From Gardnerella vaginalis (GTDB taxonomy: Bacteria; Actinomycetota; Actinomycetes; Actinomycetales; Bifidobacteriaceae): DNA of 64,000 bases. Shown here one piece after another: positions 14,466 through 64,000 of the stretch; positions within the stretch are counted from its first letter, which is position 1, and each line of letters opens with the position of its first letter. The stretch is from the NCBI RefSeq assembly GCF_001546485.1, contig NZ_KQ956830.1, positions 1-64,000 of the forward strand. The letters run 5' to 3'. The position numbers were made by a program, and so were the translations under genes. The notes below the pieces were generated by a model. The model did not search any database. It was not told where the DNA came from and saw only the letters and a list, made by a program, of their open reading frames with translations.

Positions 14466-14472
14466 TGACAAG

Positions 14473-15976: not shown

Positions 15977-16231
15977 AATCTTTACTTTATTAGGAGGTAT
16001 GACGAGTAAAACAAAACTTACCTCTAATAAACTTACCTCTAATATTGAAATCTACTAAGACATATCCTCATAACCCACATTGCTGCACGTTTTCTCTACA
16101 AACAACTAGCTAATTCACAGTATTTATACAGCTCAGTATTCAGAAAATCGTAAGAGCAAACAGCTTAACTCTTACATAGATAACAGCATGGTTTATGATG
16201 GTGTGTTAAGAATCTTTTGTAAGGAGGATGA

Positions 16232-17932: not shown

Positions 17933-17990
17933 ATCGAAAATCAAAAAATAGCGCAGTTTGTAACTCAACAACTATAAACCGCTAAGACAT

Positions 17991-18036
17991 AAACGCCCCG
18001 AAAGTAAGCTAGTGAAAACTTACAATCGGGGCGTTT
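17991..18036 (+). terminator. Hairpin terminator after the HtrA-like gene
   Basis: AAACGCCCCGA (17991-18001) pairs perfectly with TCGGGGCGTTT (18026-18036), with an inner stem GTAAG/CTTAC. The U-run is short (TTTGCTAATAAAT). A 15-base tandem duplication CGTTTGCTAATAAAT (18032-18046 and 18048-18062) overlaps its end. The rest of the gap 17933-18231 shows nothing else. Confidence 0.65.
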
Positions 18037-18231
18037 GCTAATAAATACGTTTGCTAATAAATCATATTAACTATTTTTGCAATACGCTGAAACTATGACG
18101 TATACAGGCTTTGCAAAACTCGTATTAACTCAATATTTTGCACGTAATGCAATACACGCCGTAATTTTGAAGCCTGTAGAGCACCTGCAAATAACTTTCG
18201 TGCGAATCATCCGGAAATTGAATTACTGTAA

Positions 18232-19926
18232 CTATTTAACATTACTTTTACGCTCATAAACAGTAACTGTGTTTTCAAAAGTTGTAGCTTTCCAAGATGC
18301 TTGAGTATGAGCAACAACATGCTGCCTATAATGATCAATATTGTAATCCAATGCAACAAAGTAGTACCACGGCTCATTCGATTCAGTAACGAAAAACTGT
18401 GGCTCCTTTTTTGCTTTACAAGTAGATAATTCGGCATAAATTTGATTATCTGTTGACTGCTCATTAGTAATAAATGAACTATTTTTATAACTACAGTCAA
18501 TAAGATTCTTTGCAAAATAAGGATTCGCAGTGATAAGCTGCCAAGAATATTGGTGCACATCCTCAAATTCTGGAGAAATAACTTTACCAGATTTGTCAGT
18601 TTTTTCATCTTGATGCAGCCAAGAAGTTACGAAACGCTTATTTTCTGCATGATTTTGTCGAATAAATTGCGCAAGCGCACGCGATCCCGAATAATCAAAT
18701 TTAATATCGTGCACGCAGGCAAACAGATTCCAAATCAAACTTGGTGCTAGCAAAATAATAATAAGGGCATAAATTAGGGTTCGCTTATTGACAAACTTAT
18801 TGGTAAACTTAATTTTCTTTGAAAAATATTGGAGCAATCTACGAATAATTGTTGGAATATCTTCAAAATTAAGTTGACGCTGATCGATGCACATCCACAG
18901 TTGAGAAATAAAGAATGCGAATACGATTCCTGCATGATGCAAAGTAAAATATTGCGTTGCAATAATAGCAAAAGTCAAACAAGGAAGAATAAGAGATACC
19001 AACATTTTCCTACGTTTTGCAATACAAATAGCGAAAGCCCAAATCAGTATTGAAATAAGAACGCAAATAATAATTGGCACTATTCCCAAAGACATTCTTC
19101 GCAAGGAAACGTCTCCAGCGAATGCTGTAAACATGCTCTCCGATGGCATTATAAAAATAAAGGACAAAAATTGCAGCAACGGTGAATTGCCATCGAAAGT
19201 TTTGCGAGAACCAAATGCGTTAGCAGCAGGCCAAATACAAGCAATACTTGCAAAACCAACGAAAGCTAGCAAAATCCAGCCCAGCAAACGATTTATGTTA
19301 GAAAATACTGCACTAACAGCATGCCTCATTCCAGCTAGCTGTACTGTTCGCAGCACCCAAGCCAAAGCAAAACCTGCAGCAATCGCAATTCCGTAGGCAC
19401 TTATAGCGCACATAAGTACAAGACTTAGCACGAGTTTCCAAGTGTTAGAAGGCTTAGAATCCGCTTCTTTCCAGTAGTATGCAGTCATGAACAAAGCAGC
19501 ACACAGCAACGCATATGGGCGCGAAGTAACACCATATTGGAAGCAAAGGAAATAAGTGAATGGAAGTAGCACAATTACAAGACGATTGAAAGGAGAGCGA
19601 AATATCAACCATCCGCCTAGAAGAGCAGCGCACAAAAACTGCACACCTTTAAGACCAATTTCGTACGGAACCCCGGTTTTTGCAGGAATGGAAAGAAGAA
19701 GCGTCCACAACGGCGGATGCCCTTCGTAATGCGGACGAAGAGTTAACAAATCAGCAAACGAAGAATCACGCGCAATAAGCCAACTTTGTGCTTCGTCAAA
19801 CCAAGGCTCATGGAATAACATGACAACAATAATCACAACAAGATATGCAATAAAAGTAAGTATGCGAGCATACTTTCGCAACCATATATTTTGCGAGGGT
19901 TGATCTGTAACAGTATTCTCATTCAT
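18232..19926 (-). CDS. Polytopic membrane protein, GT-C glycosyltransferase-like
   Basis: A 564-residue protein with about ten hydrophobic helices in the first 400 residues and a hydrophilic C-terminal domain of about 150 residues with several Cys. In the first extracellular loop, after helix 1, it reads PWFDEAQSWLIARDSSF and then HYEGHPPLWTLLL. This acidic DE plus GHPPLW layout is that of lipid-linked-sugar glycosyltransferases (PMT/ArnT/GT39-like). Transfer of a sugar from a polyprenyl carrier to the cell envelope is the reasonable guess; donor and acceptor are unknown. The ATG at 19926 is chosen because AAAGGTAATT precedes it. It follows rlmB with a terminator between them. Confidence 0.7.
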   Translation of the reverse strand: MNENTVTDQPSQNIWLRKYARILTFIAYLVVIIVVMLFHEPWFDEAQSWLIARDSSFADLLTLRPHYEGHPPLWTLLLSIPAKTGVPYEIGLKGVQFLCAALLGGWLIFRSPFNRLVIVLLPFTYFLCFQYGVTSRPYALLCAALFMTAYYWKEADSKPSNTWKLVLSLVLMCAISAYGIAIAAGFALAWVLRTVQLAGMRHAVSAVFSNINRLLGWILLAFVGFASIACIWPAANAFGSRKTFDGNSPLLQFLSFIFIMPSESMFTAFAGDVSLRRMSLGIVPIIICVLISILIWAFAICIAKRRKMLVSLILPCLTFAIIATQYFTLHHAGIVFAFFISQLWMCIDQRQLNFEDIPTIIRRLLQYFSKKIKFTNKFVNKRTLIYALIIILLAPSLIWNLFACVHDIKFDYSGSRALAQFIRQNHAENKRFVTSWLHQDEKTDKSGKVISPEFEDVHQYSWQLITANPYFAKNLIDCSYKNSSFITNEQSTDNQIYAELSTCKAKKEPQFFVTESNEPWYYFVALDYNIDHYRQHVVAHTQASWKATTFENTVTVYERKSNVK

Positions 19927-19980
19927 AATTACCTTTATCTCATTCATTGTGTGCGGTTTCTGTTATTAATCATACAAAGA

Positions 19981-20010
19981 AAATCACGCCCGCACTTTAG
20001 CGAGCGTGAT
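19981..20010 (-). terminator. Terminator after rlmB
   Basis: On the minus strand ATCACGC(TCGC) pairs with (GCG)GGCGTGAT and is followed by TTTTCTTTG. The stem lies 25-55 bases past the stop codon. Confidence 0.75.
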
Positions 20011-49667: not shown

Positions 49668-52151
49668 ATGACTAAACACGTCGCGCCGAAAGCCAAAACT
49701 ACTGCGACGGCATTTGCCAAAGAACTTCAAGAGCATCTCAAGTACACCCAAGGTGTAACGCCAGAGCAGGCCACTACGGCAGATGTGTATGTTGCCGCTG
49801 CTACCGCAGTTCGTCGTCACTTGATGGACTCTTGGATGCAGACACAGCATGACATGGTTAACGGCAATACTAAGGCTGTAGGCTATTTGAGCGCAGAGTT
49901 CTTGATGGGCAAGCAGCTTGAGAATGCTTTGTTGAACGCTGGTCTTACTGACCAGTTCAATAAGGCTGTTACTAAGCTTGGTTTTGATCCAAAGGCTGTT
50001 ATCGATGCTGAGTATGAGCCAGGTTTAGGTAACGGCGGTTTGGGTCGTCTCGCAGCCTGCTTTATCGACTCGCTCGCCTCTATTGGCGTGCCAGCATTCG
50101 GCTACGGCATCCAGTATCGTTACGGCATCTTCAAGCAGCGTTTTGATGAAGAAGGTAAGCAGGTAGAAACCCCTGATTACTGGCTAAGCAACGAAGAGCC
50201 ATGGGGTCACATTGATTACGGTCGTGACCAGCGCGTCAACTTCGGTGGTGAAGTTGTCGAAGAGAATGGTAAGCGCGTATGGAAACCAGCTTGGTCTGTT
50301 CGTGCAGTACCAGTTGATTACATGGTTCCAGGTTATAATTCTGGTCGAGTGAATACTCTTCGCTTGTGGACTGCTAAGTCTTACGATGAGTTTGATTTGC
50401 TCACTTTCAACAAGTCTGATTATTTGGACGCTGTGAAGCCGCAGGTTGCAGCGGAAAACATTTCTAAGATTCTTTACCCAGAAGATTCCACTCCAGAAGG
50501 TAAGGCTTTGCGTCTTGAACAGCAGTACTTCTTCGTAGCTGCTTCTATTCACGACGCTATCCGCGTATTCTATCCAGGTCAAGACAAGCCGGATCTCACT
50601 ACCTTCCCAAGCAAGATTAACTTCCAGTTGAACGATACTCACCCAGTTATCGGTATTCCAGAGCTTATGCGCGTTCTTATGGACGAGTACGGTTATGATT
50701 GGAACACCGCTTGGGGTATCACCACTAAGACATTCAACTACACTTGCCACACTCTGCTTCCAGAAGCTTTGGAAGTTTGGCCAGCAAAGCTTATTGGCGA
50801 ACTTTTGCCACGTCACCTTGAGATTATTCAGGGCATTAGCGAGCAGTTCCGCAACGAGCTTCGCGGTAAGGGCGTTGCTGAGGATCAGGTTGAGCGTATG
50901 CGCATCGCTACCGACGCCGATGAAAATGGCGAAGGTGCTGTAGTTCGTATGGCTTACTTGGCTACCTACGCCGGCTCTTACGTTAACGGTGTTGCTGAAC
51001 TTCACTCTGAGTTGTTGAAGGATGTCACTTTGAAAGACTTCTCCAGCGTTTACCCAGATAAGTTCAAGAACGTTACTAACGGCGTAACTCCTCGTCGCTT
51101 CGTACGTTTGAGCAACCCACGCATGTCTGCTCTTATTACTGAGGGCTTGGGTACAGACGCATGGCAGGGTGATTTGGAGCTTCTCGAAGGTTTGAAGCCA
51201 TTGGCTGATGACCCATCCTTCGTAAAGAAGTTCGCTAAAGTTAAGCACGAAAACAAACTTGCCTTCGTTGATTTCGCAAAGCAGAAGTACGGCTTTGAGA
51301 TCAACCCAGACACCATGTTCAACACCATCATTAAGCGTTTGCACGAGTACAAGCGTCAGTCCATGAAGATCCTTCAGGTTATCTCCATGTACGCTGGAAT
51401 TAAGAACGGCACAATCGACGTTGACAAGATGCTTCCACGCACCGTGTTCTTCGGCGCTAAGTCTGCTCCAGGCTATGCTATGGCAAAGCTCACCATTCAG
51501 CTCATTAACAATGTTGCTCGCGTGGTGAACAATGATCCAGCATGCAAGGGCAAGCTTGCAGTGTTCTTCCCACCAAACTACAACATCGAGTTGGCAATGA
51601 ACTTGATTCCTGCCACCGATTTGGACGAGCAGATTTCTCAGGCTGGTAAGGAAGCTTCCGGCACTGGTAACATGAAGTTCGCTTTGAATGGTGCTTTGAC
51701 TGTTGGTACTCTTGATGGTGCAAACGTTGAGATTCGCGAGCGCGTTGGCGCTGAGAACTTCTTCCTCTTCGGCATGACCGTTGACGAGGTTGAGAAGCTT
51801 TACGCTGAAGGCTACGATCACGGTGGCTCCCGTAAGTACTATGAATCTGATCCTCGCTTGAAGACCGCTGTGGATATGGTTGCTGACGGCACCTTCTCCA
51901 ATGGTGACAAGAGCGTGTATGAGCCACTCGTCAACGATTGGCTTACCCACGACTACTTCATGGCAATGGCTGATTTCAGCTCTTACATGGATATTCAGGC
52001 TCAGATTGAGGAAACTTACCGCGATCCAATGAAGTGGGCACGTATGGCTGTATTGAATGTTGCCAACTCCGGTTACTTCACTTCCGATCGTTCTATTCAG
52101 GATTACCTCGATCGCATTTGGCACACTGGTCCACTTCCAGTTGCTGAGTGA
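49668..52151 (+). CDS. glgP: Glycogen/maltodextrin phosphorylase
   Basis: An 827-residue PLP enzyme that releases glucose 1-phosphate from alpha-1,4-glucans. The PLP-lysine motif EASGTGNMKFALNGALTVGTL is near residue 665, and the N-terminal GNGGLGRLAACFIDSLA and the RIHEYKRQ-like RLHEYKRQSMK are standard. The codon choice is strikingly biased (CGT, AAG, CCA, TTG, GGT) compared with the neighbours, which points to high expression. The same bias leaves a long open frame on the other strand, which I take to be an artefact. GGAGTCAAAT precedes the ATG. A perfect 25-base inverted repeat after the stop ends the transcript. It lies upstream of the Hsp70 cluster but is not part of it. Confidence 0.97.
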   Translation: MTKHVAPKAKTTATAFAKELQEHLKYTQGVTPEQATTADVYVAAATAVRRHLMDSWMQTQHDMVNGNTKAVGYLSAEFLMGKQLENALLNAGLTDQFNKAVTKLGFDPKAVIDAEYEPGLGNGGLGRLAACFIDSLASIGVPAFGYGIQYRYGIFKQRFDEEGKQVETPDYWLSNEEPWGHIDYGRDQRVNFGGEVVEENGKRVWKPAWSVRAVPVDYMVPGYNSGRVNTLRLWTAKSYDEFDLLTFNKSDYLDAVKPQVAAENISKILYPEDSTPEGKALRLEQQYFFVAASIHDAIRVFYPGQDKPDLTTFPSKINFQLNDTHPVIGIPELMRVLMDEYGYDWNTAWGITTKTFNYTCHTLLPEALEVWPAKLIGELLPRHLEIIQGISEQFRNELRGKGVAEDQVERMRIATDADENGEGAVVRMAYLATYAGSYVNGVAELHSELLKDVTLKDFSSVYPDKFKNVTNGVTPRRFVRLSNPRMSALITEGLGTDAWQGDLELLEGLKPLADDPSFVKKFAKVKHENKLAFVDFAKQKYGFEINPDTMFNTIIKRLHEYKRQSMKILQVISMYAGIKNGTIDVDKMLPRTVFFGAKSAPGYAMAKLTIQLINNVARVVNNDPACKGKLAVFFPPNYNIELAMNLIPATDLDEQISQAGKEASGTGNMKFALNGALTVGTLDGANVEIRERVGAENFFLFGMTVDEVEKLYAEGYDHGGSRKYYESDPRLKTAVDMVADGTFSNGDKSVYEPLVNDWLTHDYFMAMADFSSYMDIQAQIEETYRDPMKWARMAVLNVANSGYFTSDRSIQDYLDRIWHTGPLPVAE

Positions 52152-52193
52152 GTACGTATAACATATAACTCACACTTTAGAGCTAATAAGTAA

Positions 52194-52260
52194 AAAAGAT
52201 AAATAAAAAGGAGCAACGGAATAATGTTCTCGTTGCTCCTTTTTATTTATCTTTTAGTCT
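52194..52260. terminator. Perfect 25-bp inverted repeat after glgP
   Basis: The bases 52194-52218 are exactly complementary to 52231-52255. The core is GGAGCAACG/CGTTGCTCC, flanked by AAATAAAAA and TTTTTATTT. It is a very strong terminator that insulates the next cluster. Confidence 0.9.
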
Positions 52261-52390: not shown

Positions 52391-54334
52391 ATGAGTTTTA
52401 TTGATATGCTTAATCAGCTGGGAAATCAACGAGGAAATTACAGCGCACATTTTACCCAAAATACCGCATCCACACTATCAGATACTGATTTTTTTAATTC
52501 AGTTCAAAAACCTACTGATAAAGATCTTCGTGAAGCCTGGAGACAAGCGATACGAAAATATGGTTTACAATATGATACACCTGATGTGCCCGTTATTGAC
52601 GATACCTTGGTGCCAAAGGAAACTGCCGAATCAAAAAGAGCATACGACGAAATCAATAATCACGCTATTTATGGTGCTCGCATATATGGAAATCCTGGTT
52701 CCGGTCTTAATGACAGTTCTTTTGGTGAAAGACAAATTAAAACTGGCATAAAAGGCGAATCTGTTTTCGCAAAATTATTATCTTGGGACAATATATTGAA
52801 CCATTGTGTTTCTTTCTGGTCCGTTTACAAACCAGATGCAGCGGGAAATCGCAATGCTATGGGTGCCGATATTGATTGCATACTAAAATTTGGAAATCAT
52901 ATACTTATGGTGGATGTAAAAAACTATCGTTCAGGATTGGATTATCATACACTTATTCCCAATAAAGCTATGTTTTGTACCTACAAAAAGGCACGAGTAG
53001 TAGCTCACGATGAATATATTTTCAGTGCAAATATGGCATTTGCTCAACGCGATATGACGAATTATCTCCAAGAAAATCACAGCCATTGTACAGTTGAGTC
53101 ATTTGTAGTATTAGTCCCAAGCTCAGTTGGTCAAGCAACGTTAGATTCTGACATTTGCTGGCCCACAGGCATACCAGCTATGTCATATTCATCATTTATT
53201 GACATGCTGAAGGAACGAGCTCTTCATGATAACTCCTACCTTAATTTTGATTCAACGCAAACTCCTGAAGAAGGATTTCTGGCTTCTTTAGTAAAAAGCT
53301 ACGGCGATATTCCTATCAACACTCTGAACAAGAACATGAGTAGTTTTTCTTGGCCTGAACCTACTTATGATGAGTTACGTGGCATTAAACCGAAACAACC
53401 ACAAAAATCACAAAAAAACTGGCAAAAGTATCATAGCAATAAGCGATATACCACACAATCAGACAACGCAATGACTGATACATGCTCATCCAACACAAAT
53501 ACGCAAACGCAACAGCAATATGTTAATCAGCAGAAAACACAGCAACCTTGTCAGGAGTATACTAAACCCGTAACAATGGGACGTGACTGTTCTTTACAAC
53601 TGTTAAAAGATGAACATAACAACTCAGATGTGCTCTCTTTTGCTCACGTTTCTGGATTTTTAGCTGCCGGATGGCAAGGATCAGGAATGGTGTTTGCCAT
53701 GTCATCAATTATAGGAACGTTAGTACGAATACCCAATATAAATGTCCATATTATAGACTGTAATAGTTCATCTTGCTTTGAACAGTACGAGGATGAAGCC
53801 GCTTCATATACTAGGCTTATGGACGGTAGCGATTTAGTGAGCGGATGCATTCAAAGTATGTATACATCGCTTATATCGAGAGAATTATCTCGCCGCAAAC
53901 ATGGCATAGGTTTTTGGGATACACAAGATCATCAAGGACTCAAACTCGAAATTTTATATATTAATGAATGCTCGTACTTATTCAACCCAAAACTGAAAAC
54001 AAAACGTTTATCCAATGATGACGAGCAAAACATCAGTGATTCACTGCGGTACATGCGTCATATTCTTACCAAAGGGGTTGAAAACGGCATGTGTATTATG
54101 ATGGCAACCCAAAAACCATCATTCGCATCGTTACCAGCAACGTTAGTTGACTCATGTCAGATCCGCGCTTGTTTCAAGGTACCTTCACAAACACTAGCAA
54201 AAACTGTTTTGAGAGATGCTTATACTGATAGGCTCATTCCCGTCGAAACATTGCGAATAGGTGAGAGCTTACTGCATACTCCACAACATTCATTGCAACG
54301 CGTTACTTTTAATCTACCAACACGAAATTCTTAA
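52391..54334 (+). CDS. NERD domain fused to a degenerate FtsK/TraG-like P-loop domain
   Basis: A 647-residue protein with no clear transmembrane helix. About residues 115-270 form a NERD (nuclease-related) domain: TGIKGESVFAKLLS, then GADIDCILKFGNHILMVDVK with an Asp/Lys pattern typical of the PD-(D/E)xK fold. A Gln/Thr-rich linker (NTNTQTQQQYVNQQKTQQP) follows. The C-terminal 240 residues follow the FtsK/HerA plan, but the Walker A position reads GWQGSGMVFAMSS, with no Lys-Ser/Thr, and the Walker B position is LEILYINECSYLF. The arginine-finger-like TQKPSFASLPATLVDSCQIR remains. ATP hydrolysis is therefore doubtful. It is the first gene of the cluster and starts after GAGCGAGG. Confidence 0.75.
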   Translation: MSFIDMLNQLGNQRGNYSAHFTQNTASTLSDTDFFNSVQKPTDKDLREAWRQAIRKYGLQYDTPDVPVIDDTLVPKETAESKRAYDEINNHAIYGARIYGNPGSGLNDSSFGERQIKTGIKGESVFAKLLSWDNILNHCVSFWSVYKPDAAGNRNAMGADIDCILKFGNHILMVDVKNYRSGLDYHTLIPNKAMFCTYKKARVVAHDEYIFSANMAFAQRDMTNYLQENHSHCTVESFVVLVPSSVGQATLDSDICWPTGIPAMSYSSFIDMLKERALHDNSYLNFDSTQTPEEGFLASLVKSYGDIPINTLNKNMSSFSWPEPTYDELRGIKPKQPQKSQKNWQKYHSNKRYTTQSDNAMTDTCSSNTNTQTQQQYVNQQKTQQPCQEYTKPVTMGRDCSLQLLKDEHNNSDVLSFAHVSGFLAAGWQGSGMVFAMSSIIGTLVRIPNINVHIIDCNSSSCFEQYEDEAASYTRLMDGSDLVSGCIQSMYTSLISRELSRRKHGIGFWDTQDHQGLKLEILYINECSYLFNPKLKTKRLSNDDEQNISDSLRYMRHILTKGVENGMCIMMATQKPSFASLPATLVDSCQIRACFKVPSQTLAKTVLRDAYTDRLIPVETLRIGESLLHTPQHSLQRVTFNLPTRNS

Positions 54335-54464
54335 TATAGAAACATATACATTTGCAAGGTGAGAGACAATCCCTTATCTGCAGATAGTACAGACAAACAT
54401 TGAAAAAGAGCTCTACACAGTTATATAATACCAACAGTAACATTGGGAGAAAGAAGATTCAACT

Positions 54465-54815
54465 ATGGATGAACTGCTCATTGCTATCGTAGTCATTTGT
54501 GTGGTTGTATGGGTTATTATACAAGTTGTCAATTGGATTATACATTTTTTAAGTCAAAACCCTGTTATTGGACAAACTACAAGTTTAATCATAGAAATCG
54601 CTATTTTATGCGCACTGTTGATAGGATTTGTCATAGGTGTAATAGGTGCACTAAAGAGCTACTATAAGGCTTTAATTGATGTATACGGCAAAAATAGTGG
54701 CATACTCATTAGCACCATTTCAACCATTTTCTGGGCTGCATGCGTGCTGTTTATCACAAATCCAATCTTGCAATCACTGTTTACGGCAATAAAATTATTA
54801 CTTCATCACGAGTAG
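54465..54815 (+). CDS. Small three-helix membrane protein
   Basis: A 116-residue protein made almost wholly of three hydrophobic helices (about residues 3-28, 46-68 and 84-110). Short polar turns separate them, with SYYKALIDVYGKNSG between helix 2 and 3. I do not recognise a family. It lies 130 bases after the NERD gene and 49 bases before the zinc-ribbon GTPase, on the same strand. The likely role is a membrane subunit of the system. AGAAAGAAGATTCAACT precedes the ATG, a fair site. Confidence 0.75.
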   Translation: MDELLIAIVVICVVVWVIIQVVNWIIHFLSQNPVIGQTTSLIIEIAILCALLIGFVIGVIGALKSYYKALIDVYGKNSGILISTISTIFWAACVLFITNPILQSLFTAIKLLLHHE

Positions 54816-54864
54816 TTCATAATTACATAGCAATAGTGAATTAAGCTGTTGTAAAGGGAGTATT

Positions 54865-56415
54865 ATGGCAAAGGTAAAGATATCTGATCCAGCAGAAATT
54901 TCCTATTTTTATCGACAAAATTGGATTGACATTAAGGAAATTATCCACAAATTTTTACTTAACACAAGAGAATCACTGAATGATTCAACAAAAGGGATTA
55001 ACGATACTTACTGGACTTCGAGTTTCTTGTCAGTCTTGAAAACAGTGTTTGCGTACATCTGTTGGCTGTCTTCTGCTTTTATTCAGCTTGTAGTTGCTAT
55101 TTCACTCTTCTTCTTCATGGTGTTTCCGCATATTGTGATTGCAACATTAATTGACATAGTAGCCATAACTATTATAAAAATATTGGCGTTTATCGATTTC
55201 TTAGTCATTCATGTTGGTCGTATCTCTTACGTTTGCGATTTCTGCCACGAACGTTACAACAACCCCATTTATATTTGTCCAACATGTAATGAAAAGCATT
55301 TTGCACTGAAACCAAATCGTTATGGCGGCTTGCATCATAAGTGTACTTGTGGTCAAATATTATCCTCAAGTTTATTGTGCCATAAGAATCCTCGCTACGC
55401 TTTGCAAAGCATTTGCCCATGCTGCTGGAAATCAGGCCGTGAAACTTTTGTCGAAAGCACTAACAGTCGTACCATACTTATTCCTATCGTTGGCGGCGAG
55501 TCAACAGGTAAGACTGCAATTATCACGGCCTACGTAAAGGATTTTGTGTCCACTAGAACAGCGCAACATGGTTTATCTGTCGAATTTTATAATGACGATA
55601 AACAATCAATGTTTACTAACATGGATACAGATTATCAGCGCGGAACAGTACAAAAAACTGCTACTATTACTGATACCACTGCTTCTAGTATTCTTGCCAT
55701 GAGTTTTTACATACATGGTAAGAATCTCAATCCAAAACGACTAATCCAGCTATATGACATTGCTGGAGAGACCTTTGTTTCGCAGCAAGAGCATGAGAAG
55801 CAAAATCAATATGCGCGTTGCGATGGCATCGTGTTAGTCATTGATCCTATGTCATTACCACAAGTGAAAGCTATGTGGTCTGGAGATCTTGCTGCTGGCG
55901 ATTTGGGTACTATCAGTTCCGCAAATCTTGAAGATGTAATGAGTGCACTCAATAATAATCTTCGCGCAACCACTAATATCGACCGCAAAAATAAGCTATC
56001 AACTCCTATCGCTGTAGTCATCAACAAAATCGATGAGTCAGAAGAGTTGCAAAATCATATTGGAGATAAAGCTATTGCTAAACTTCGAGCATCAGATCCT
56101 GAAAAATGGAATGATGAGTTTGACACCATGGACTTCTTGTGCCGACAATTCCTTATAGACATGGATATGCCAGAAGTTGTCGATCTCATTGCTCAGAATT
56201 TCAAAACTTCACGATTTTTTGCTATAAGCGCAATAGGTCACACAGCCGGCACTGGCAAAGCTTTCACACCAAAGAATGTAAATGCAGCAATCGATTGGAT
56301 TATACGACAGAGCGATCCAACGTTAGCGAATGCTTTACAAGCAGTAACATTTTCCAAGAACGTACTACCTATTGAACAGCCTGCAATAGGTATGGCAGAC
56401 CAGTTTTTGAATTAA
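54865..56415 (+). CDS. Membrane-anchored zinc-ribbon GTPase
   Basis: A 516-residue protein. Two long hydrophobic helices at about residues 55-112 are followed by a Cys-rich segment at about 122-195. This holds CDFCHERYNN and YICPTCNEKH, then CTCGQILSSSLLC and CPCCWKSGRE, like double zinc ribbons. A GTPase domain follows with P-loop GGESTGKTAI (about 210), G3 DIAGETF (about 297) and G4 INKIDES (about 386). The GE after DIA replaces the usual GQ/GT. The general look is of TRAFAC-type GTPases such as the double-GTPase groups found in conflict systems, as an inference. GGGAGTATT precedes the ATG. Confidence 0.78.
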   Translation: MAKVKISDPAEISYFYRQNWIDIKEIIHKFLLNTRESLNDSTKGINDTYWTSSFLSVLKTVFAYICWLSSAFIQLVVAISLFFFMVFPHIVIATLIDIVAITIIKILAFIDFLVIHVGRISYVCDFCHERYNNPIYICPTCNEKHFALKPNRYGGLHHKCTCGQILSSSLLCHKNPRYALQSICPCCWKSGRETFVESTNSRTILIPIVGGESTGKTAIITAYVKDFVSTRTAQHGLSVEFYNDDKQSMFTNMDTDYQRGTVQKTATITDTTASSILAMSFYIHGKNLNPKRLIQLYDIAGETFVSQQEHEKQNQYARCDGIVLVIDPMSLPQVKAMWSGDLAAGDLGTISSANLEDVMSALNNNLRATTNIDRKNKLSTPIAVVINKIDESEELQNHIGDKAIAKLRASDPEKWNDEFDTMDFLCRQFLIDMDMPEVVDLIAQNFKTSRFFAISAIGHTAGTGKAFTPKNVNAAIDWIIRQSDPTLANALQAVTFSKNVLPIEQPAIGMADQFLN

Positions 56416-56441
56416 TTTTTTAGAGTAGAAAGGAACAAGAG

Positions 56442-57350
56442 ATGGATGATGCAAATCTTCTTAAAGAAAGTTACCAAACTGAAGGTTGCGTAGACACAGA
56501 AGAACTGCAACCTTCTCACGTAGATCATAAACCAGTACTCTCTAAAACTTTTACTGTAGACGAAAATACTGCTGATGCAGTTCCACAAAGGTATGCCACC
56601 AATGAATCCAACCAAGAAGCAATCATGGCAGAAACTCCAGTGGAAGACTCATCAGTTACACCTAAAAAATCTCAATGCGAAGATTCTTACAAAGAAGCAC
56701 TCAATAATTTACAATCATCTATCATTGATAATCTCCAAGAGCATCACGAAACATTACACAATGACCTCAATGAGGTTTCATCTGTATTAGCAATGCTTAA
56801 TAAACAGTTCACTCAAAGATTGCAATACGACAAAGTAAAAGAGACAGTCATTGACCGTCAACATAAAGAACTTGAAGAGTTCCGCGAAGGTCTCAACCAC
56901 AATTTACAGCGCCCTTTGTTATACGATATCGCAGAGACTTTGGACGATATCCGCAAAACTAAACTTTTCTACGCTAAAAAGGAGAATAGCGAACTTGCTA
57001 TAAAAGCACTAGAAGGCGTAGAGGATTCACTCAATTACATCTTAGAAAAGAACAATGTTGAATGTGCCAGTAGCTCTGAAGGCGATCCGTTTACTGGAAC
57101 ATGTCAGCGAATGATTAAAAGCATTCCTACTTCTGATATTTCTAAACAAAGAACAATCGCCGAGTCCGTCGCTCCAGGATATATTTTTGACAAAGAAACA
57201 CTTTTTAAAGAAAAAGTAATCGTATACAAGTATGTGCCCGATTACACAGAGACGGGACAACAAGTTCAGCCAGCTGAGATAATCTCAACACCTACACCAG
57301 ATAATGAAGAAACTGCAGAATTTAACACTTTTGAAAACACTAACAAGTAA
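56442..57350 (+). CDS. GrpE-like nucleotide exchange factor
   Basis: A 302-residue protein. The N-terminal 110 residues are acidic and poorly conserved. About residues 115-200 form long helices (KETVIDRQHKELEEFREGLN, then RPLLYDIAETLDDIRKT), as in the GrpE dimer. About 213-270 match the GrpE beta domain: GDPFTGTCQRMIKSIPTSD, then TIAESVAPGYIFDKETLFKE and KVIVYKY. It would speed ADP release from the two Hsp70s encoded next. It is much larger and more divergent than the housekeeping GrpE, which should be elsewhere, so this copy is probably private to the cluster. AAAGGAACAAGAG precedes the ATG, 26 bases after the GTPase gene. Confidence 0.8.
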   Translation: MDDANLLKESYQTEGCVDTEELQPSHVDHKPVLSKTFTVDENTADAVPQRYATNESNQEAIMAETPVEDSSVTPKKSQCEDSYKEALNNLQSSIIDNLQEHHETLHNDLNEVSSVLAMLNKQFTQRLQYDKVKETVIDRQHKELEEFREGLNHNLQRPLLYDIAETLDDIRKTKLFYAKKENSELAIKALEGVEDSLNYILEKNNVECASSSEGDPFTGTCQRMIKSIPTSDISKQRTIAESVAPGYIFDKETLFKEKVIVYKYVPDYTETGQQVQPAEIISTPTPDNEETAEFNTFENTNK

Positions 57351-57458
57351 TACAATAAAAAAGAAATTAATAAATATAACGTGCAGTTAATTAGGTTACT
57401 GCAACCTACAACATTTTGTCATGGAATAAATCCTGATAAATCAAAGAAAGGAACATCA

Positions 57459-59132
57459 ATGTCAAAATACGTTTACGGAATTGACTTAGGAACCACTTAC
57501 TCATGCATTGCTTATCAAAGTGAAGATGGCCGTCCAACAGTTATCAAGAATGTGGATACTAATTCAGACACAACGCCTTCAGTAGTTCAATGGGATGAAG
57601 AAGGAACCGTAGTTGTAGGACAAGAGGCAAAAGATTCCGGAGTTTTGCTACCAGATCGCACTATTGCTTTCGTTAAGAGATTGATGGGTAAAAGCAATAT
57701 TGCTATTACTATTGATGGCCGAGACGTCTCACCAACTGAAGTAAGCTCATACATTCTTAAAGAATTAGCAAAACAAGCTAGTCAGCAACTTGATGATGAA
57801 GTCAAGGATGTTATTATTACATGCCCAGCTTACTTTGGTGAAGCAGAACGCACTGCAACAAAGCAGGCAGGTGAAATTGCCGGTCTTAATGTTTTATCTG
57901 TTATTGAGGAACCAACCGCTGCCGCTATATGTTACGGAGTAACGCGCGCAACAGAGAATAAAAATGTTATGATTTATGATCTCGGCGGCGGAACATTTGA
58001 TATTACTATTATGCAAATTGCTAATGGTACTATTCGCGTTGTTACTACTGAGGGTGATCATGAACTTGGTGGCAAAGATTGGGATACTGTAGTTAGCCGT
58101 ATGCTTGTCGACAAGTTTATGGAGGCAACAGGAAGCGATACAAATCCGCTTGATGAAGAAGATAGCGAAGAATTCCAACAAGACCTTGCTATTAAGGCTG
58201 AAAAGCTGAAGCAAGCTCTTTCTAATAAGCAAACAGCCAAGCAGGTTCTCAACTTTAACGGCGAACGCGCGCAGGTAGAAGTTTCACGTGAAGAATTTGA
58301 TGAAGCTACTAAGAATCTGGTTGTACGCGCATTACAGCTGGCAGATAAAGCTGTTGAAACCGCAAAATCTCAGAATATTACAATCGATGATATTCTCCTG
58401 GTTGGTGGTTCTACTAAAATGCCACAGATTCAGGAGAGCGTAAAAGAGCACTTTGGTATGGATCCAAAAATCTTTGAACCAGATGAGGCAGTGGCAAAAG
58501 GTGCTGCAATTTACGCAATTATGCAGGCTGATGAACAATCTAAGCTTCGTGAAGACGAAGTCAAGGAAACCGATGACAACGGCAACGAGGTTGCTGTTAA
58601 TCAAACTACTGGCGAAAAGCGTGTGCTTCCAACATTATCAGGCGGCGGTTCCGCACTGCCAACAATCGGTGGAAGCGCAGCAAGCGTCAAAGTTATTTCC
58701 GTATCAACTAAGAGTTTTGGTGTTAAAGCTACCGACATTTCAGATGGAAATGAAAAAATATTTAATTTGATTCTAAAGGATGATCCAATCCCAGCATCTA
58801 TAACTAAATCATTTGCAACACAAGAAGATAATCAGCTGGGCGTAGAACTACGCATTTATCAGAATTCTGATCGTGTTGAAACATATGATGTTGATGAAGA
58901 CTTCTTCTTGGGCACTGCTGAACTTTCTTTGGCTCCTAACACTCCAAAAAATTCTGAGATTCAAATTACACTCGATTTGACTGAAGATGGTACCGTAAAA
59001 ATGCACGCCATGGATATCACATCTGGCAATGTAGTTGATGCTCACTGGAAACCAGAAAATGTCATGAGCGATAAAGAACTTGAAGAAGCTAAAGCTCGTG
59101 TTAGCGAATCCAAGAGCATCAGCATAATGTAG
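57459..59132 (+). CDS. DnaK-like Hsp70 chaperone, cluster-specific
   Basis: A 557-residue Hsp70. The nucleotide-binding domain is complete: GIDLGTTYSCIAYQS, RLMGKSNI, EEPTAAAICYGV, IYDLGGGTFDITIM and DDILLVGGSTKMPQIQ. After about residue 370 a Gly/Ser linker (LPTLSGGGSALPTIGGSA) leads to a substrate-binding beta domain (IPASITKSFATQEDNQLGVE). The C-terminal helical lid is almost missing; the protein stops at ARVSESKSISIM. It is thus a shortened DnaK. AAAGAAAGGAACATCA precedes the ATG at 57459. It sits between the GrpE homologue and an Hsp70-vWA fusion, so the three surely work together. The client is unknown. Confidence 0.9.
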   Translation: MSKYVYGIDLGTTYSCIAYQSEDGRPTVIKNVDTNSDTTPSVVQWDEEGTVVVGQEAKDSGVLLPDRTIAFVKRLMGKSNIAITIDGRDVSPTEVSSYILKELAKQASQQLDDEVKDVIITCPAYFGEAERTATKQAGEIAGLNVLSVIEEPTAAAICYGVTRATENKNVMIYDLGGGTFDITIMQIANGTIRVVTTEGDHELGGKDWDTVVSRMLVDKFMEATGSDTNPLDEEDSEEFQQDLAIKAEKLKQALSNKQTAKQVLNFNGERAQVEVSREEFDEATKNLVVRALQLADKAVETAKSQNITIDDILLVGGSTKMPQIQESVKEHFGMDPKIFEPDEAVAKGAAIYAIMQADEQSKLREDEVKETDDNGNEVAVNQTTGEKRVLPTLSGGGSALPTIGGSAASVKVISVSTKSFGVKATDISDGNEKIFNLILKDDPIPASITKSFATQEDNQLGVELRIYQNSDRVETYDVDEDFFLGTAELSLAPNTPKNSEIQITLDLTEDGTVKMHAMDITSGNVVDAHWKPENVMSDKELEEAKARVSESKSISIM

Positions 59133-59172
59133 CTCATGTAGAAAAAGCATAAAAACGAAGATATTCCTTTCA

Positions 59173-59212
59173 GTTGTGTCAACGGAGTATGGCTACGCGC
59201 CGTTGACACAAC
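59173..59212. promoter_or_regulatory. Inverted repeat between the two Hsp70 genes
   Basis: GTTGTGTCAACGG (59173-59185) and CCGTTGACACAAC (59200-59212) pair perfectly over 13 bases around a 14-base loop. There is no U-run. The right arm contains the TTGACA of a promoter, so the element may be an operator, a partial terminator, or both. Confidence 0.55.
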
Positions 59213-59232
59213 ATTGATACGAAATTTATAAA
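59203..59232 (+). promoter_or_regulatory. Internal promoter for the Hsp70-vWA gene
   Basis: TTGACA (59203-59208) is followed after 18 bases by TATAAA (59227-59232), or after 17 by TTATAA. It stands 86 bases before the Hsp70-vWA start. Confidence 0.5.
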
Positions 59233-59317
59233 TAAAAAATTCTTGTTATGTTGCGAACAACATAGATTTCTTAACGCGTAATAGCATACATAACAGCAAT
59301 ATTGAGGGAGAAGAGCT

Positions 59318-61417
59318 ATGGGTATTTCTGTAGGAATTGACTTAGGAACCACATATTCCGCAGTTGCAATGATTGATAAGAATACTGGACGAGCTCGTAT
59401 AATCCCTAATAAGGACGGTAATTCAGTAACTCCATCTGTAGTTTACGTTGGAGATGATGATTCAATACTAATAGGTCAAGAAGCGAAAGATCAGCAAGAA
59501 TTCGGCTCTGAAAATACAGCAGCATTCTTTAAGAGATCTATGGGCGATCCAATGTTTCATATCAACCTACACGGCCACGATTGCACTGCTGTTACTTTAT
59601 CTGCAATGATGCTCAAAGGATTAGTAGAACAAGCTGAAGAAGTTTCTGGCGAACACATCGATTCGGCATATATTACTGTTCCTGCCTATTTTAAGAATTC
59701 CGAACGTGAAGCAACTCTTGCTGCAGCAAAACGAGCTAAGCTCAATGTATTGGGTCTTCTTAACGAACCAACTGCTGCTGCATTTGCTTACGGTCTTAAC
59801 GGTAAAGGCGTTCATCAAACTGTACTCATTTACGATCTCGGCGGCGGTACGTTCGACGTTACACTTGCAAAAATTGACGAAGATGAAATTCGTATTCTTG
59901 GCTCTGACGGCGATCATAAGTTAGGCGGAAAAGATTGGGATACTGCCGTAACTCAGTGGATTATTGAACAATTCCAGCAGGAGTTCGATGTTGATATTTC
60001 TGAAGATACAAACGAACTTTCTCAAATTGCAGTTCTAGCTGAGCGAGCAAAAAAACGTCTTTCTCAAGCTGCACATGCTGACATTACTGTTAGCTATAAC
60101 GGAGACCATGGAAAATACCGTATTACCAGAGAAATTTTTGACGATATCACCAACTACCGTTTGAAATCTACTAGTGATATCGTAGACAGATTATTTGCGA
60201 GTGTTACGCCACGCATAACTTGGCAAGACATTGATGGAGTAGTACTTGTTGGAGGATCTACTCGCATGGCGCAAGTACATGATTATGTTGAGCGCATGAG
60301 TGGAAAGCCACCATTAGGAGGCATCAATGTAGACGAAGCAGTAGCACTTGGCGCAGCAATACGAGCTAACCAAAACAGCAATGGAATTTCCTCATTACCA
60401 ATGTTAGGAGGGTCCACTAGCTCAAAGAAAGCACCGCTACCAGTTATTGGTAGTAAAAAAATCACAGATGCTACAGCACACGCTTTAGGCATGATTTCCG
60501 AAAGTAAGGACGGAAGAGAATATTTTAATAATATTCTTATACCAAAGAATTCACCTATTCCAGCTCATAACACCAAACAAGTTGAATTAAGAATCCCGTC
60601 TCAAGGCGGAACTATGGAGGTGTATTTGTTGCAAGGTGGAGAGCATGCTCCGCTTGACAACGAAGTCGCAGGAAAATATGTGTTTACAAATATTGAAAAT
60701 GTAAACAATAGCAGACTTGCACATATGGATGTCACGTATAGTTATGACGATAATGGTGTAATTCAGATTTCTGCAATACAGAAAGAGACTGGCAGATCGC
60801 TTGTTATGCACAGAGAACCAGTACCAGAAGATATGGATTGGGTGTATAAGAGTCCAAACGAAATAGCAAAAGAAGCTAAGAAAAATGCTGTTAGTGGAGA
60901 AGTATATTTGTTCATTGACATGTCTGGCAGTATGTCTGGAGATCCTATAAAGCAAACCATTGTTGCAGCGAACGATTTTATTAAACAAATAGATGTAACA
61001 TCTTTGCATGTAGGTTTAGTAGGTTTTGGCGATAGATCAATAGGATATCTAAAAGCTTCTAACGATTTGCAAAAAATACGTTATCACATTAATAAAATTA
61101 AGCAGTACTTTGACGAAGGTAAATGTGGATACGGAAATGAAAATAATCCTCTATCAATTTTACCAGATTTGTATAGCAATAATTCACAAATCAAACTTGC
61201 TATTATTCTCACTGACGGAGTGTGGGATTATGAAAATCAAGCAATATATAGTGCAGAAAGAGCTTGGAGTATCAATTCCGATACGGTTGGAATTGGTATA
61301 GGCAGCGCCAATGAAGACTTCTTGCAAAAGATATCCTCAATGAGAGAATTGAGTCAGTTAACTGATCTTAGTGGATTATCTGAAAGTTTCTCCAATATTG
61401 CACGAGCTATTAGCTAA
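59318..61417 (+). CDS. Hsp70 fused to a von Willebrand A domain
   Basis: A 699-residue fusion. Residues 1 to about 365 are an Hsp70 nucleotide-binding domain: GIDLGTTYSAVAMID, FKRSMGDP, NEPTAAAFAYGLNG, IYDLGGGTFDVTLAK and VVLVGGSTRMAQVHDY. About 370-510 are a substrate-binding-like beta domain (IPAHNTKQVELRIPSQGG). From about 527 a vWA domain begins, with MIDAS DMSGSMSGDPIK and ILTDGVWDYENQ. There is no helical lid; the vWA domain takes its place. So ATP-driven chaperone action would be linked to a metal-dependent binding module. GGGAGAAGAGCT gives the start. The upstream gap has its own promoter, so it can be expressed apart from the first Hsp70. Confidence 0.9.
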   Translation: MGISVGIDLGTTYSAVAMIDKNTGRARIIPNKDGNSVTPSVVYVGDDDSILIGQEAKDQQEFGSENTAAFFKRSMGDPMFHINLHGHDCTAVTLSAMMLKGLVEQAEEVSGEHIDSAYITVPAYFKNSEREATLAAAKRAKLNVLGLLNEPTAAAFAYGLNGKGVHQTVLIYDLGGGTFDVTLAKIDEDEIRILGSDGDHKLGGKDWDTAVTQWIIEQFQQEFDVDISEDTNELSQIAVLAERAKKRLSQAAHADITVSYNGDHGKYRITREIFDDITNYRLKSTSDIVDRLFASVTPRITWQDIDGVVLVGGSTRMAQVHDYVERMSGKPPLGGINVDEAVALGAAIRANQNSNGISSLPMLGGSTSSKKAPLPVIGSKKITDATAHALGMISESKDGREYFNNILIPKNSPIPAHNTKQVELRIPSQGGTMEVYLLQGGEHAPLDNEVAGKYVFTNIENVNNSRLAHMDVTYSYDDNGVIQISAIQKETGRSLVMHREPVPEDMDWVYKSPNEIAKEAKKNAVSGEVYLFIDMSGSMSGDPIKQTIVAANDFIKQIDVTSLHVGLVGFGDRSIGYLKASNDLQKIRYHINKIKQYFDEGKCGYGNENNPLSILPDLYSNNSQIKLAIILTDGVWDYENQAIYSAERAWSINSDTVGIGIGSANEDFLQKISSMRELSQLTDLSGLSESFSNIARAIS

Positions 61418-61476
61418 TTTAATTGCTTTCAACTAAATAATTGCGTGAGTGAACTAAAACAAAGGTCAGGATAATT

Positions 61477-64000
61477 ATGAGCACCACTAATATGTACCTA
61501 TTGTTAGACATCTTTAAGTTTGACAATAATCTTGTTGGGAATAGTGATAACGATCAAGCAGTAATCGCCGTTATTCAATCAGCTCTAAAAGCTAAGGAAG
61601 CACAGTGGTCCAAAGAATCTAATACAGCTTCTTCAAAGGCTGAAGTTGCAAAAATCAACATGGAGAGAAGTAAAAACGCTCTCAAAAACTTGAGCACGCA
61701 GGCAGATAGAAAAGCCTGTTGGGAAGAAGCAAAACAGCTTGTAGAAACTGAAATTAATAAGACTCTAAAAATTTTCTTAATAAGAGGCTATCTTGTAGAC
61801 AGTAATTTTGACGCTATCATCAAAAAAATTAAGGATACTTTAGGAGTAACACTCGAGAGAAAAGACATTGAGCTTTTCACTAAGAATGTGGAAGTTCGTA
61901 AAGCAAGCAAAACAAATGTACCTTCTGGTAAAGAGTTAAAACCAGAAGGCATAAATGAAACAAAATATAAGAATAATAATGGCAAACTCCAAACATTAGG
62001 TTACAGCTCTCTTTATGATTTGCTGGCCAAAAAGCGAAAAGTAACAAAAATAAAGAGCACTCCTACTGACATGTGGAAACAATGGGCAGATGAGGACAAT
62101 AAAGCTCTACCTAATAAATCATCCGAAGAAGTAAGCTTCCAGCATGATTTGCTTAACTTCTGCATAACAAGTGTCTTCGATTCTGAAAAATCACGTCAAG
62201 ATTATGACAACTACTTAGCATATAAGGACTTAAAATCTAAACTTGATGACATTAAATTAGCTTATGCTTCAGATAAAAATTCACCTCAGCCACTTGATAA
62301 CGCTAGCGCAAATCAATTTATTAAGGAAATGCTACAAATAGCTTCCCAGCATAATATGCAGCTCACAAGAAAAGATATGGTGGAATATATTCTATTCATG
62401 TGCGCTAAGGCTAAGATTCCGTATAATCCTCCTGAATTAAGCCAAAGCGAAGAAAAAAGCGTCGCATATTACTATTGCCCTTGGTGCGGTGTTGTTATCA
62501 ACGAAAATGATGTAGCTTGCGCATCCTGTGGAGGAAAAATAAAGGTTACATGCGTAAAGTGCGGTGCAAGCAACAGAGCAGATGATAAGTTCTGTTCTAA
62601 TTGCGGCAAAAACTATGCAGATTTGCAGAAAGCTACTGCTCTTTGTGCCGCGGCAGAAAACGAACTTAGCTATCTTCGATTTGATAAAGTTGAGTTGCTT
62701 CTTGATACCGCTCAGTCACTGTGGAAAGATCTTGAAGATATTGATAAAACTCGAATTGAATTGCACAGGCAACAAAAACTCATTGGCACACAAATAAATG
62801 AGCTTAATGATGCGATTAAGAAAAAACAATTCATGAGAGCACAACGTACATATGTTGACATTCGTAAGCAATATGCACAATATAATGACGCTGAAATAGA
62901 AGAAAAAATTAAGGACAGCATTTCTCAAGCTCAAGCAATTCTCGGCTCAAATGGCGGACTAAACAATTTAACTACTGCTTTAAGAGCATACGAAGTTTGC
63001 TCTGATTATACAGGTCTTGCTACAGCTTTTGCGAAAAACACTCCTCAAGCAACAGGGACAATATCCGTAATTTCAAATACACTTACTCGTGAAAACAACA
63101 TAACATGGCAACCTTCACGAACTACACCTGTCATATACGTACTTGTAAAGAAAAAAGGATCTGCTCCTATCAGTATTGATGATGGAGACATTATCGCTCG
63201 CACAAGCGGCACATCATTTACAGATACTAATGTTGAAAGCGCAAGTGAATATTATTATGCTGTTGCTGCAACATGTGGCCCTATGTCATCTTCTTTAATT
63301 GTTTCTAAGAGAATTGTCAATTATTTTGATGTTACCAGCCCTAGAGTTTCACCTTCAAATGAGTCATTACAGATAACTTGGTCTAAACAACCTGCAAATT
63401 CTTCTATAGAGGTGTGGCGTAATGAAAATCATACGCCACAAAGCCCAGGTGACGGCATTAAGGTAGCAAATGTTGTAAATGGCGGATTGCTTGATTCAAA
63501 TCTTCTAAACAATACCACGTACTATTACACAATTTACGCTGTCTATCAAGCATCGGATGGAACTACAAAATACTCTCGTGGCATATCGTGCAGCGGCACT
63601 CCAATTACGCCACCAGAGCCAATTGATTTCATGATTCCTCAACTACAGAAGGATAGAAGTTTTACACTCCAATGGAATAAACCAAGTACAGGCGAAAGTA
63701 AGTTCTACTACACAAACACTGCACCAAAATTTAGCATGGAAGATTCTATACCTGAATCAGAGCTATCCGCAAAAGCCATGCCGTTATCTGTTAAAGTAAC
63801 TGGAGACGGAAAGGGTACATTCACTCTCCCAGACGATAATGTTTATTATATTATCGCGGCAACTGTAAAAAATGGTACTGCACTAATTGGCACTACCGCA
63901 ACAGTATCAAGTAAAGAGGCAGTAACTATAAAAAAGATAACAGCATCTAACACTAATGCTTTTGTTATTTTTGATTGGCCGAACGGCAGCGAACATGTAG
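61477..64000 (+). CDS. Large zinc-ribbon protein with FN3-like repeats (cut by window edge)
   Basis: The frame is open for 841 codons to the window end. The protein starts MSTTNMYLLLDIFKFD after an AGGATAATT site. About residues 1-330 are helical and charged; the opening YLLLDI and the helix ending near NALKNLSTQADRKACW recall a J-domain arrangement, but no HPD is seen, so this is speculative. A double zinc ribbon follows at about 333-375 (CPWCG, CASCG, CVKCG, CSNCG), then a coiled-coil region (about 380-490). At least three fibronectin-III-like domains come next (NITWQPS, LQITWSKQP and FTLQWNKP strands). It looks like a large adaptor or scaffold. It belongs to the Hsp70 cluster by orientation and a gap of 59 bases. 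Confidence 0.75.
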   Translation, partial: MSTTNMYLLLDIFKFDNNLVGNSDNDQAVIAVIQSALKAKEAQWSKESNTASSKAEVAKINMERSKNALKNLSTQADRKACWEEAKQLVETEINKTLKIFLIRGYLVDSNFDAIIKKIKDTLGVTLERKDIELFTKNVEVRKASKTNVPSGKELKPEGINETKYKNNNGKLQTLGYSSLYDLLAKKRKVTKIKSTPTDMWKQWADEDNKALPNKSSEEVSFQHDLLNFCITSVFDSEKSRQDYDNYLAYKDLKSKLDDIKLAYASDKNSPQPLDNASANQFIKEMLQIASQHNMQLTRKDMVEYILFMCAKAKIPYNPPELSQSEEKSVAYYYCPWCGVVINENDVACASCGGKIKVTCVKCGASNRADDKFCSNCGKNYADLQKATALCAAAENELSYLRFDKVELLLDTAQSLWKDLEDIDKTRIELHRQQKLIGTQINELNDAIKKKQFMRAQRTYVDIRKQYAQYNDAEIEEKIKDSISQAQAILGSNGGLNNLTTALRAYEVCSDYTGLATAFAKNTPQATGTISVISNTLTRENNITWQPSRTTPVIYVLVKKKGSAPISIDDGDIIARTSGTSFTDTNVESASEYYYAVAATCGPMSSSLIVSKRIVNYFDVTSPRVSPSNESLQITWSKQPANSSIEVWRNENHTPQSPGDGIKVANVVNGGLLDSNLLNNTTYYYTIYAVYQASDGTTKYSRGISCSGTPITPPEPIDFMIPQLQKDRSFTLQWNKPSTGESKFYYTNTAPKFSMEDSIPESELSAKAMPLSVKVTGDGKGTFTLPDDNVYYIIAATVKNGTALIGTTATVSSKEAVTIKKITASNTNAFVIFDWPNGSEHV

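Follow-up and report, generated by a model that had tools for sequence, protein, structure and literature searches.

Does a run of genes that brings together private Hsp70 chaperones, GTPases and a nuclease-like protein represent an undescribed system, and what might such a system do? The question is raised by the right-hand end of a 64,000-nucleotide stretch of Gardnerella vaginalis DNA (the window; C5:1-64000 of genome G000, 1.6 Mb), where an initial annotation had described seven co-directional genes behind a very strong terminator as a possibly undescribed system that continues past the window end. All seven open reading frames (ORFs) are present, closely spaced and in one direction, and the rightward extension (L002, C5:60000-79999) adds three more, giving an operon-like run of ten genes (g1 to g10, C5:52391-69379; Table 1), seven of which start inside the window. 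From their sequences, the ten genes can be assigned with high confidence to the GTPase-centric systems of the GAP1-N2 type with an HSP70/GrpE theme, as an island of sporadic distribution. The system is not undescribed: the theme of DO-GTPases, GAP1-N2, FNIII, HSP70 and GrpE appears already in the parts of Kaur et al. 2020 (PMC7159879) drawn on here, and the diagnostic GAP1 gene had been missed because the window ended before it.

GTPases, GAP1 and membrane proteins

Both GTPases (g3, g8) exceed the cut-off of 27 bits for the DO-GTPase2 family PF19993, and Walker A is present in 98 of 99 GTPase matches. The GAP1 protein (g9) scores 50.3 bits against PF20013 (GAP1-N2; cut-off 24) and 23.7 bits against PF20014 (GAP1-M), just under the cut-off of 24. 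The description of g3 as a membrane zinc-ribbon GTPase holds for the membrane, with hydrophobic stretches at residues 54-73 and 75-121, and for the GTPase; a putative zinc ribbon is suggested by CxxC pairs in the sequence, Pfam listing no such family for g3 and, across g3 and g8, none but Prok-RING_4 at 11 bits. In g8, cysteines C7, C10, C23, C68, C71, C80 and C83 are invariant in four of four relatives. The tiny membrane protein (g2) is borne out by its hydrophobic segments, and weak relatives of it stand at the equivalent place in Bifidobacterium criceti (G042) and B. stellenboschense (G100). A model of the B. criceti GAP1 protein (pLDDT 88.6) joins an N-terminal domain of mixed type to a long alpha-solenoid of the sort found in many scaffolds; it gave generic alpha-solenoid matches and no specific family (Foldseek best E 1.3e-3; VIA Z at most 10.2, root-mean-square deviation (rmsd) 11.1).

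Private chaperones

The private GrpE (g4) and private Hsp70 (g5) of the initial annotation are both over their Pfam cut-offs and exist in addition to the host's own dnaK, grpE and dnaJ, which lie on contig C4. The fusion of Hsp70 to vWA (g6) is likewise confirmed. With a cut-off of 20.6 bits, PF00012 (HSP70) matches g5 and g6 at 347.8 and 331.2 bits; the match to g6 spans residues 5-495 and profile positions 2-492, so that the substrate-binding subdomain SBD-beta is present, and the VWA match (residues 529-677; 36 bits, cut-off 23.8) comes after it. By alignment, the vWA domain of g6 occupies the position of the DnaK lid. In both Hsp70 types the GIDLGTT, EP-AA and DLGGGTFD motifs and the lysine of the K70 region are nearly always kept among 63 aligned relatives. 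The linker of g5 and g6 differs from the VLLL type and the length of a DnaK lid is absent: after the linker block there are 124 residues in g5 versus 239 in host DnaK, and 121-127 in 38 of 39 plain Hsp70s, the exception (L156) having 321. Against TIGR02350, the canonical DnaK equivalog (cut-off 822.55), the two proteins score 332.7 and 322.9 bits, far under, and by profile score neither is a canonical DnaK. Residues D534, S536, S538 and D633 of the vWA domain (DxSxS plus Asp) are present in 26 of 26 vWA domains.

The g7 scaffold

The AlphaFold2 model of residues 1-380 of g7, from a 36-sequence alignment, has a pLDDT of 89.6. The top VIA matches of residues 1-89 are the J-domain of CbpA (Z 6.7, rmsd 3.6, 73 aligned) and then HscB (Z 5.9, rmsd 4.0, 76 aligned), values of Z that can arise by chance among helical folds. 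Compared by hhalign with four J-domains, residues 1-100 gave 97.0%, residues 168-262 gave 66%, and two control segments gave 0.4% and 0.8%. Foldseek returned no match for the N-terminal model at E ≤0.001, Pfam DnaJ matched just two of the 36 members, at E ≤1, and the HPD motif occurs in none of the 36. VIA, hhalign and topology together point to a predicted J-type fold at the N-terminus, and a second J-like segment at residues 168-262 is weakly suggested. The view of g7 as a zinc-ribbon/FN3 scaffold stands for the zinc ribbons, which Pfam recognizes and whose eight cysteines are invariant in 36 members, and is less secure for FN3, the fn3 scores being 16.2-18.7 bits (24.5 in B. criceti) with a cut-off of 25. 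Downstream of the cluster of B. stellenboschense, a second g7-like N-terminus is fused to Sel1 repeats (L043:4232-6088).

The g1 protein and FtsK/HerA-type partners

FtsK/HerA pumping ATPases carry a lysine in Walker A and acidic residues in Walker B, and PD-(D/E)xK is a nuclease motif. In an alignment of six g1 members, including the window's own and one cut at its start, the PD-(D/E)xK residues E123, D160, D162, D175 and K177 are invariant (6/6), and the Walker A lysine is gone from all six, which have M, M, E, E, E and S in its place. At Walker B the members have N or H followed by E (five) or G (one), the Asp being lost in all. The B. criceti orthologue matches FtsK_SpoIIIE at 23.7 bits, just under the cut-off of 24, and FtsK is not listed by Pfam for g1 itself. 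Judged by its motifs, the FtsK-type domain of g1 is degenerate, as the initial annotation had read it; the NERD half of that reading is less secure, in that the nuclease residues are kept but g1 scores 18 bits against PF08378 (cut-off 22.1), with 22.4 bits for the B. criceti orthologue and 13.8-21.8 for the four others.

Full-length g1 is found in five of 112 genus genomes (G000, G042, G005, G039, G065), with a sixth copy in Pseudoscardovia radai (L113). Beyond the genus, in a 296-genome sample, the FtsK half alone was matched, in 14 other genomes, and 12 plasmid records match g1, none of them covering more than 35% of the protein. Tail to tail with the g1-type gene of G039 and G065 lies a different accessory cluster, made up of an Hsp70, an FtsK ATPase and a J-TPR protein that lacks HPD; as a part of the GTPase island and as a neighbour of this cluster, the g1 type accompanies private Hsp70s in both kinds of cluster. 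Directly behind GAP1, four Clostridia loci have a HerA-type ATPase of about 1050 residues with intact Walker motifs. Thus, with the pseudo-FtsK joined to a nuclease-like domain in g1 and a seemingly active HerA type in Clostridia, FtsK/HerA-type partners recur, and the two may fill one role.

The second accessory Hsp70 cluster occurs in five other bifidobacteria, at L046 (G039:C252:98000-117999) 9563-20000, L048 (G065:C1), L047 (G040), L045 (G035) and L049 (G080). Its parts are an Hsp70, a J-TPR protein (HPD absent in the three inspected) and an FtsK/SpoIIIE ATPase, recognized by Pfam in L046 and by tblastn in the other four loci. In L046 an ORF that resembles an ISL3-type transposase by eye adjoins the cluster.

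Recurrence in relatives and across phyla

Comparison of gene neighbourhoods found the set recurring as neighbours with variable ends, an outcome that the initial annotation had named as support for its reading. B. criceti has g1 to g9 in identical order, B. stellenboschense has g2 to g9, full-length g1 not being found there, and B. jacchi (G005) has a diverged set in which g3 stands behind GAP1 and g1 is on a separate 3.9-kb contig. Identity to B. criceti is 69% for Hsp70, 64% for g8, 55% for Hsp70-vWA, 47% for g3, 44% for GrpE, 40% for g1, 40% for g7 and 38% for GAP1; by these values the slowly changing parts are one Hsp70 and one GTPase, and the fast-changing parts are GAP1, the g7 scaffold and g1.

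For comparison across phyla, genome contigs were scanned with four aligned g8 sequences, yielding 49 loci whose genes were recognized by iterated hidden Markov models built from the island's own proteins. As the scan used the GTPase alone, association with chaperones was not built in and close kin of the bifidobacterial form were favoured; as the search patterns came from bifidobacterial GTPases, the 49 loci represent this clade and not all GAP1-N2 systems. They include Bifidobacteriaceae, Sphaerisporangium, many Clostridia, Treponema, Desulfobacterales, Thiotrichaceae, Acidobacteria, Bacteroidota, Planctomycetales and one putative archaeal metagenome-assembled genome (names are those of record titles). 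The order GrpE, Hsp70, (Hsp70-vWA), FN3, GTPase, GAP1 is present at 33 of the 49, and 19 of these 33 have the Hsp70-vWA fusion. Where at least 7 kb lies upstream (37 loci), Hsp70 was recognized at 35, GrpE at 33, GAP1-N at 37, the g7 N-terminus at 34, FN3 at 36 and vWA at 22, in one case (L139) not on Hsp70. Among the 16 loci without the full order, 11 run into a contig end upstream, three of them (L115, L129, L135) also missing a recognized GAP1 downstream; L138, L146, L147 and L153 have a different content or order, and in L151 no GrpE is recognized. That gene order is kept across phyla suggests from sequence that the chaperones are the core engine of the system in this clade.

Genes flanking the core in other genomes (101 genes) include transglutaminase-core in six and Sel1 in four, and single loci have a CHAT-TPR neighbour (L130) or a DEAD-helicase neighbour (L126).

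An island at the glgP/rhomboid site

In the 112 genus genomes the flanking genes are widespread, glgP being found in 96 and the rhomboid gene in 110. Every genome with glgP of at least 96% identity (11 genomes, L095-L105) was compared with the G. vaginalis locus, and all 11 have an island-free site: the match breaks at C5 ~52129-52161, just 5' of the hairpin, and resumes at ~70321-70381. Because the match breaks at both edges in 11 of 11, about 18.2 kb is held as a unit by G000 alone among the twelve genomes. Between the two edges nine relatives have 0.2-0.35 kb, and the other two have ~1.4 kb of other DNA. One of the 11 (L104) has glgP in the opposite orientation to the rhomboid gene, and another (L105) has a broken rhomboid gene. 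The island has a GC content of ~38%; most of the 12 kb upstream lies at 42-50%, and the downstream side at 35-43%. Orthologues of Hsp70-vWA (>50% identity) occur in three of 101 genus genomes (G000, G042, G100) and GAP1-N2 in four of 101 (the same three and G005), and in four of 296 genomes of the wider sample, G000 counted; these counts rule out a core housekeeping locus shared by all relatives, the alternative that the initial annotation had raised.

The glgP/rhomboid junction may be an insertion hotspot. The ~1.4 kb of other DNA corresponds to L101:2966-4375 and L102:3010-4431, and the insert in L101 has an ORF for a protein that by eye is membrane/coiled-coil-like.

Locus layout

The hairpin upstream of g1 is as strong as had been claimed, none of 200 shuffles folding as well. 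Promoter and terminator scans of the sequence gave nothing above shuffles, and an Rfam scan of L002 1-12000 gave no match. For g5, an ATG at 57459 looks a more probable start than the one listed. The (Gly-Ser)n tract of g10 is coded by a tandem repeat of GGCTCT/GGCTCC type, a possible length-variable site. Beyond g10, the next Pfam-recognized genes encode a rhomboid, a PASTA protein and a THUMP-like protein.

Table 1. Features of the island and HerA-type ATPase genes of Clostridia loci
Feature	Position	Strand	Remarks
Hairpin terminator	52194..52255	+	3' of glycogen phosphorylase gene (glgP); RNA fold -37.1 kcal/mol, z -12.3
g1, NERD nuclease-like (~119-241) and degenerate FtsK-type domain (~395-640)	52391..54334	+	
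g2, small membrane protein, three hydrophobic segments	54465..54815	+	Kyte-Doolittle scan
g3, membrane-anchored DO-GTPase with CxxC pairs	54865..56415	+	PF19993 45.8 bits
g4, GrpE	56442..57350	+	PF01025 29 bits, cut-off 25.8
g5, Hsp70 (nucleotide-binding domain (NBD) and SBD-beta, without lid, altered linker)	57381..59132	+	PF00012 1.2e-103
g6, Hsp70 (NBD and SBD-beta) fused to vWA	59318..61417	+	PF00012, VWA
g7, predicted J-fold without HPD, possible second J-like segment, double zinc ribbon, helical part, FN3-like repeats	61477..64542	+	1021 aa, crosses window end
g8, second DO-GTPase with cysteine pairs	C5:64544-65737		PF19993 27.7 bits
g9, GAP1-N2/GAP1-M protein, 914 aa	C5:65821-68565		PF20013, PF20014
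g10, membrane protein with Gly/Ser repeat	C5:68597-69379		
HerA-type ATPase	L117:14106-17255		behind GAP1
HerA-type ATPase	L122:13890-17039		behind GAP1
HerA-type ATPase	L125:13396-16545		behind GAP1
HerA-type ATPase	L120:15407-18541		behind GAP1

Predicted function

Of the roles considered, defence against phage or invading DNA is the likeliest for the island, and the mechanism proposed here stands at about an even chance of being correct. The two GTPases would form a switch at the membrane, and GAP1, the larger C-terminal part of which is an alpha-solenoid in the model, would read it. The g7 scaffold, with its J-like fold, zinc ribbons and fast-changing FN3 repeats, would capture a foreign or abnormal protein assembly and recruit the Hsp70 pair, which the private GrpE would recharge. 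Because HPD is lacking, the J-like fold would probably put Hsp70 in position and leave its ATPase unfired; the trigger may lie with the GTPases. Occupying the lid position, the vWA domain would hold a metal-dependent ligand and so make loading switchable. The loaded complex would then release or assemble an effector, namely the NERD nuclease and/or the membrane proteins, with the pseudo-FtsK domain of g1 as a possible adaptor or decoy. A role in conflict would fit with the sporadic occurrence of the whole unit, the pairing of a predicted nuclease with a dead ATPase, and the rapid change of scaffold and GAP1.

Several observations weigh against defence. NERD was recognized at one of the 49 loci, so the nuclease is not general to the class, and the chaperone core, being conserved across phyla, looks more like machinery than like an arms-race effector. 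No conservation of the MIDAS (metal ion-dependent adhesion site) threonine was seen in the vWA domains. The GTPase has no match among phage records and two among plasmids, at only 25-26% identity; an origin from phage or plasmid is unsupported. No experiment on this class of systems was found in the open-licence papers searched; among those listed, only Kaur et al. 2020 and a psp paper (PMC11237479) were judged to concern DO-GTPases. As reported in the parts of Kaur et al. on this class, GAP1-N2 systems are tied to a multicellular habit (601 of 904 organisms; PMC7159879), which is not obvious in G. vaginalis. The neighbourhood of the core, HerA perhaps excepted, is too noisy to be called a defence neighbourhood: PADLOC gave 114 families in 101 core-flanking genes (hand-reduced from 157 ORFs that lie near the core without belonging to it and share its direction, 141 of them at least 110 residues long) versus 62 in 100 control genes (101 random choices from 130 ORFs at contig starts in 19 of the genomes, one of 2,959 residues being left out). 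Among the PADLOC families, HerA has seven members in the neighbours and is absent from the control's best 25 of 62 families, and mad8 has eight members versus four. PADLOC matches to g1-g7 themselves are weak and partial (MTase_II, JetC, PDC-M62A, DinG and HerA among them; best E 0.00097), and for these seven genes identity with a known PADLOC system is rejected.

The island might instead be an envelope or proteostasis stress machine, in which a membrane-tethered, GTP-gated Hsp70 extracts or refolds certain membrane-associated proteins and NERD is a later passenger. Such a machine would account for the membrane location of g3 and two further proteins predicted from hydrophobicity, and for a core of GTPase, GAP1, Hsp70 and GrpE that is kept across phyla while NERD is not; a member of the DO-GTPase family in psp operons has a predicted membrane-stress role, according to the parts of the psp paper used here, which also cites a crystal structure of YcjX (PMC11237479). 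However, presence in four of 101 genus genomes and a site without the unit in all 11 near relatives are unusual for housekeeping proteostasis, and this explanation is unlikely, if the strongest of the rivals. A machine that assembles a surface or secretion structure, with the Hsp70 pair, GTPases and FtsK/HerA-type partners building or powering a membrane complex, could explain HerA in Clostridia, the pseudo-FtsK here and the FtsK ATPase cluster tail to tail with the g1 type in G039 and G065; yet the FtsK domain of g1 is degenerate, and a secreted substrate, a pilin or a WXG100-type protein is absent from the best 25 of 100 Pfam families on the 101 neighbouring genes, making this quite improbable. 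Least probable is that the unit is selfish cargo, carried by a mobile element without benefiting the host: it does lie at one site, at a junction that carries other DNA in two relatives, but Pfam lists no integrase or transposase among the ten genes and the active-site motifs of the core are kept.

A more far-reaching proposal is tentative and somewhat unlikely as a whole: that vWA in place of the lid, the HPD-less J-fold scaffold and the private GrpE constitute a previously unrecognized Hsp70 design, a GTP-gated loader that builds or arms a membrane-linked effector, in this island the g1 nuclease with its pseudo-FtsK domain, and that many phyla share it as one conserved machine in which the chaperones belong to the core and are not exchangeable effectors. 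Should the Hsp70-vWA/J/GrpE set be the core engine, as the gene order kept across phyla suggests, Hsp70 chaperones would turn out to have a second function, as a GTP-gated device for signalling or loading. As a member of its class the island is compact and complete, and it lies in a small genome. Since the site is empty in close relatives, a clean test of presence versus absence can be designed, and the listed genes, active sites and domain borders make the class prediction of 2020 directly testable.

Comparison with known systems

In the sections of Kaur et al. 2020 (PMC7159879) considered here, GAP1-N2 GTPase-centric conflict systems were predicted, their role in conflict or defence being itself a prediction, and the HSP70/GrpE theme accounts for ~14% of neighbourhoods, predominantly in actinobacteria and firmicutes. 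There, a second Hsp70 is present in a subset, the FNIII protein is fused to DnaJ or TPR, and HSP70 is treated as a lineage-specific theme and counted among likely multimer-forming effectors. The island resembles that theme in its DO-GTPases with N-terminal cysteine pairs, one with an N-terminal transmembrane segment, in GAP1-N2, in a putative FNIII-type protein with a predicted DnaJ-type domain, and in HSP70, GrpE and a second Hsp70 gene. It differs in that its second Hsp70 keeps SBD-beta and has vWA, whereas theirs is "sans its peptide-binding domain" and section 29 gives no vWA on it; in that the J-fold of g7 lacks HPD; in the additional NERD/pseudo-FtsK gene, the word NERD being absent from their main text; and in that loci of this clade occur also outside actinobacteria and firmicutes. 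The VMAP (MoxR-vWA) ternary systems, as that paper presents them in the same sections, likewise combine vWA with an NTPase chaperone and have a predicted-inactive FtsK among their effectors, but the island's chaperone is Hsp70 and not MoxR, and Pfam lists no VMAP domain on the ten proteins. The CoCoNuT systems, in the portions of PMC11090510 consulted, gather domains of Hsp70-like and vWA type and ATPases of FtsK/EssC type with a GTPase in defence operons; their core, however, is the McrB GTPase with McrC, and their Hsp70-like CnuD is degenerate, whereas the ATPase motifs of the island's Hsp70s are intact. What is added here to the prior description is the island with its empty sites, the gene order across phyla, the Hsp70-vWA layout, the NERD/pseudo-FtsK protein and the predicted J-fold without HPD.

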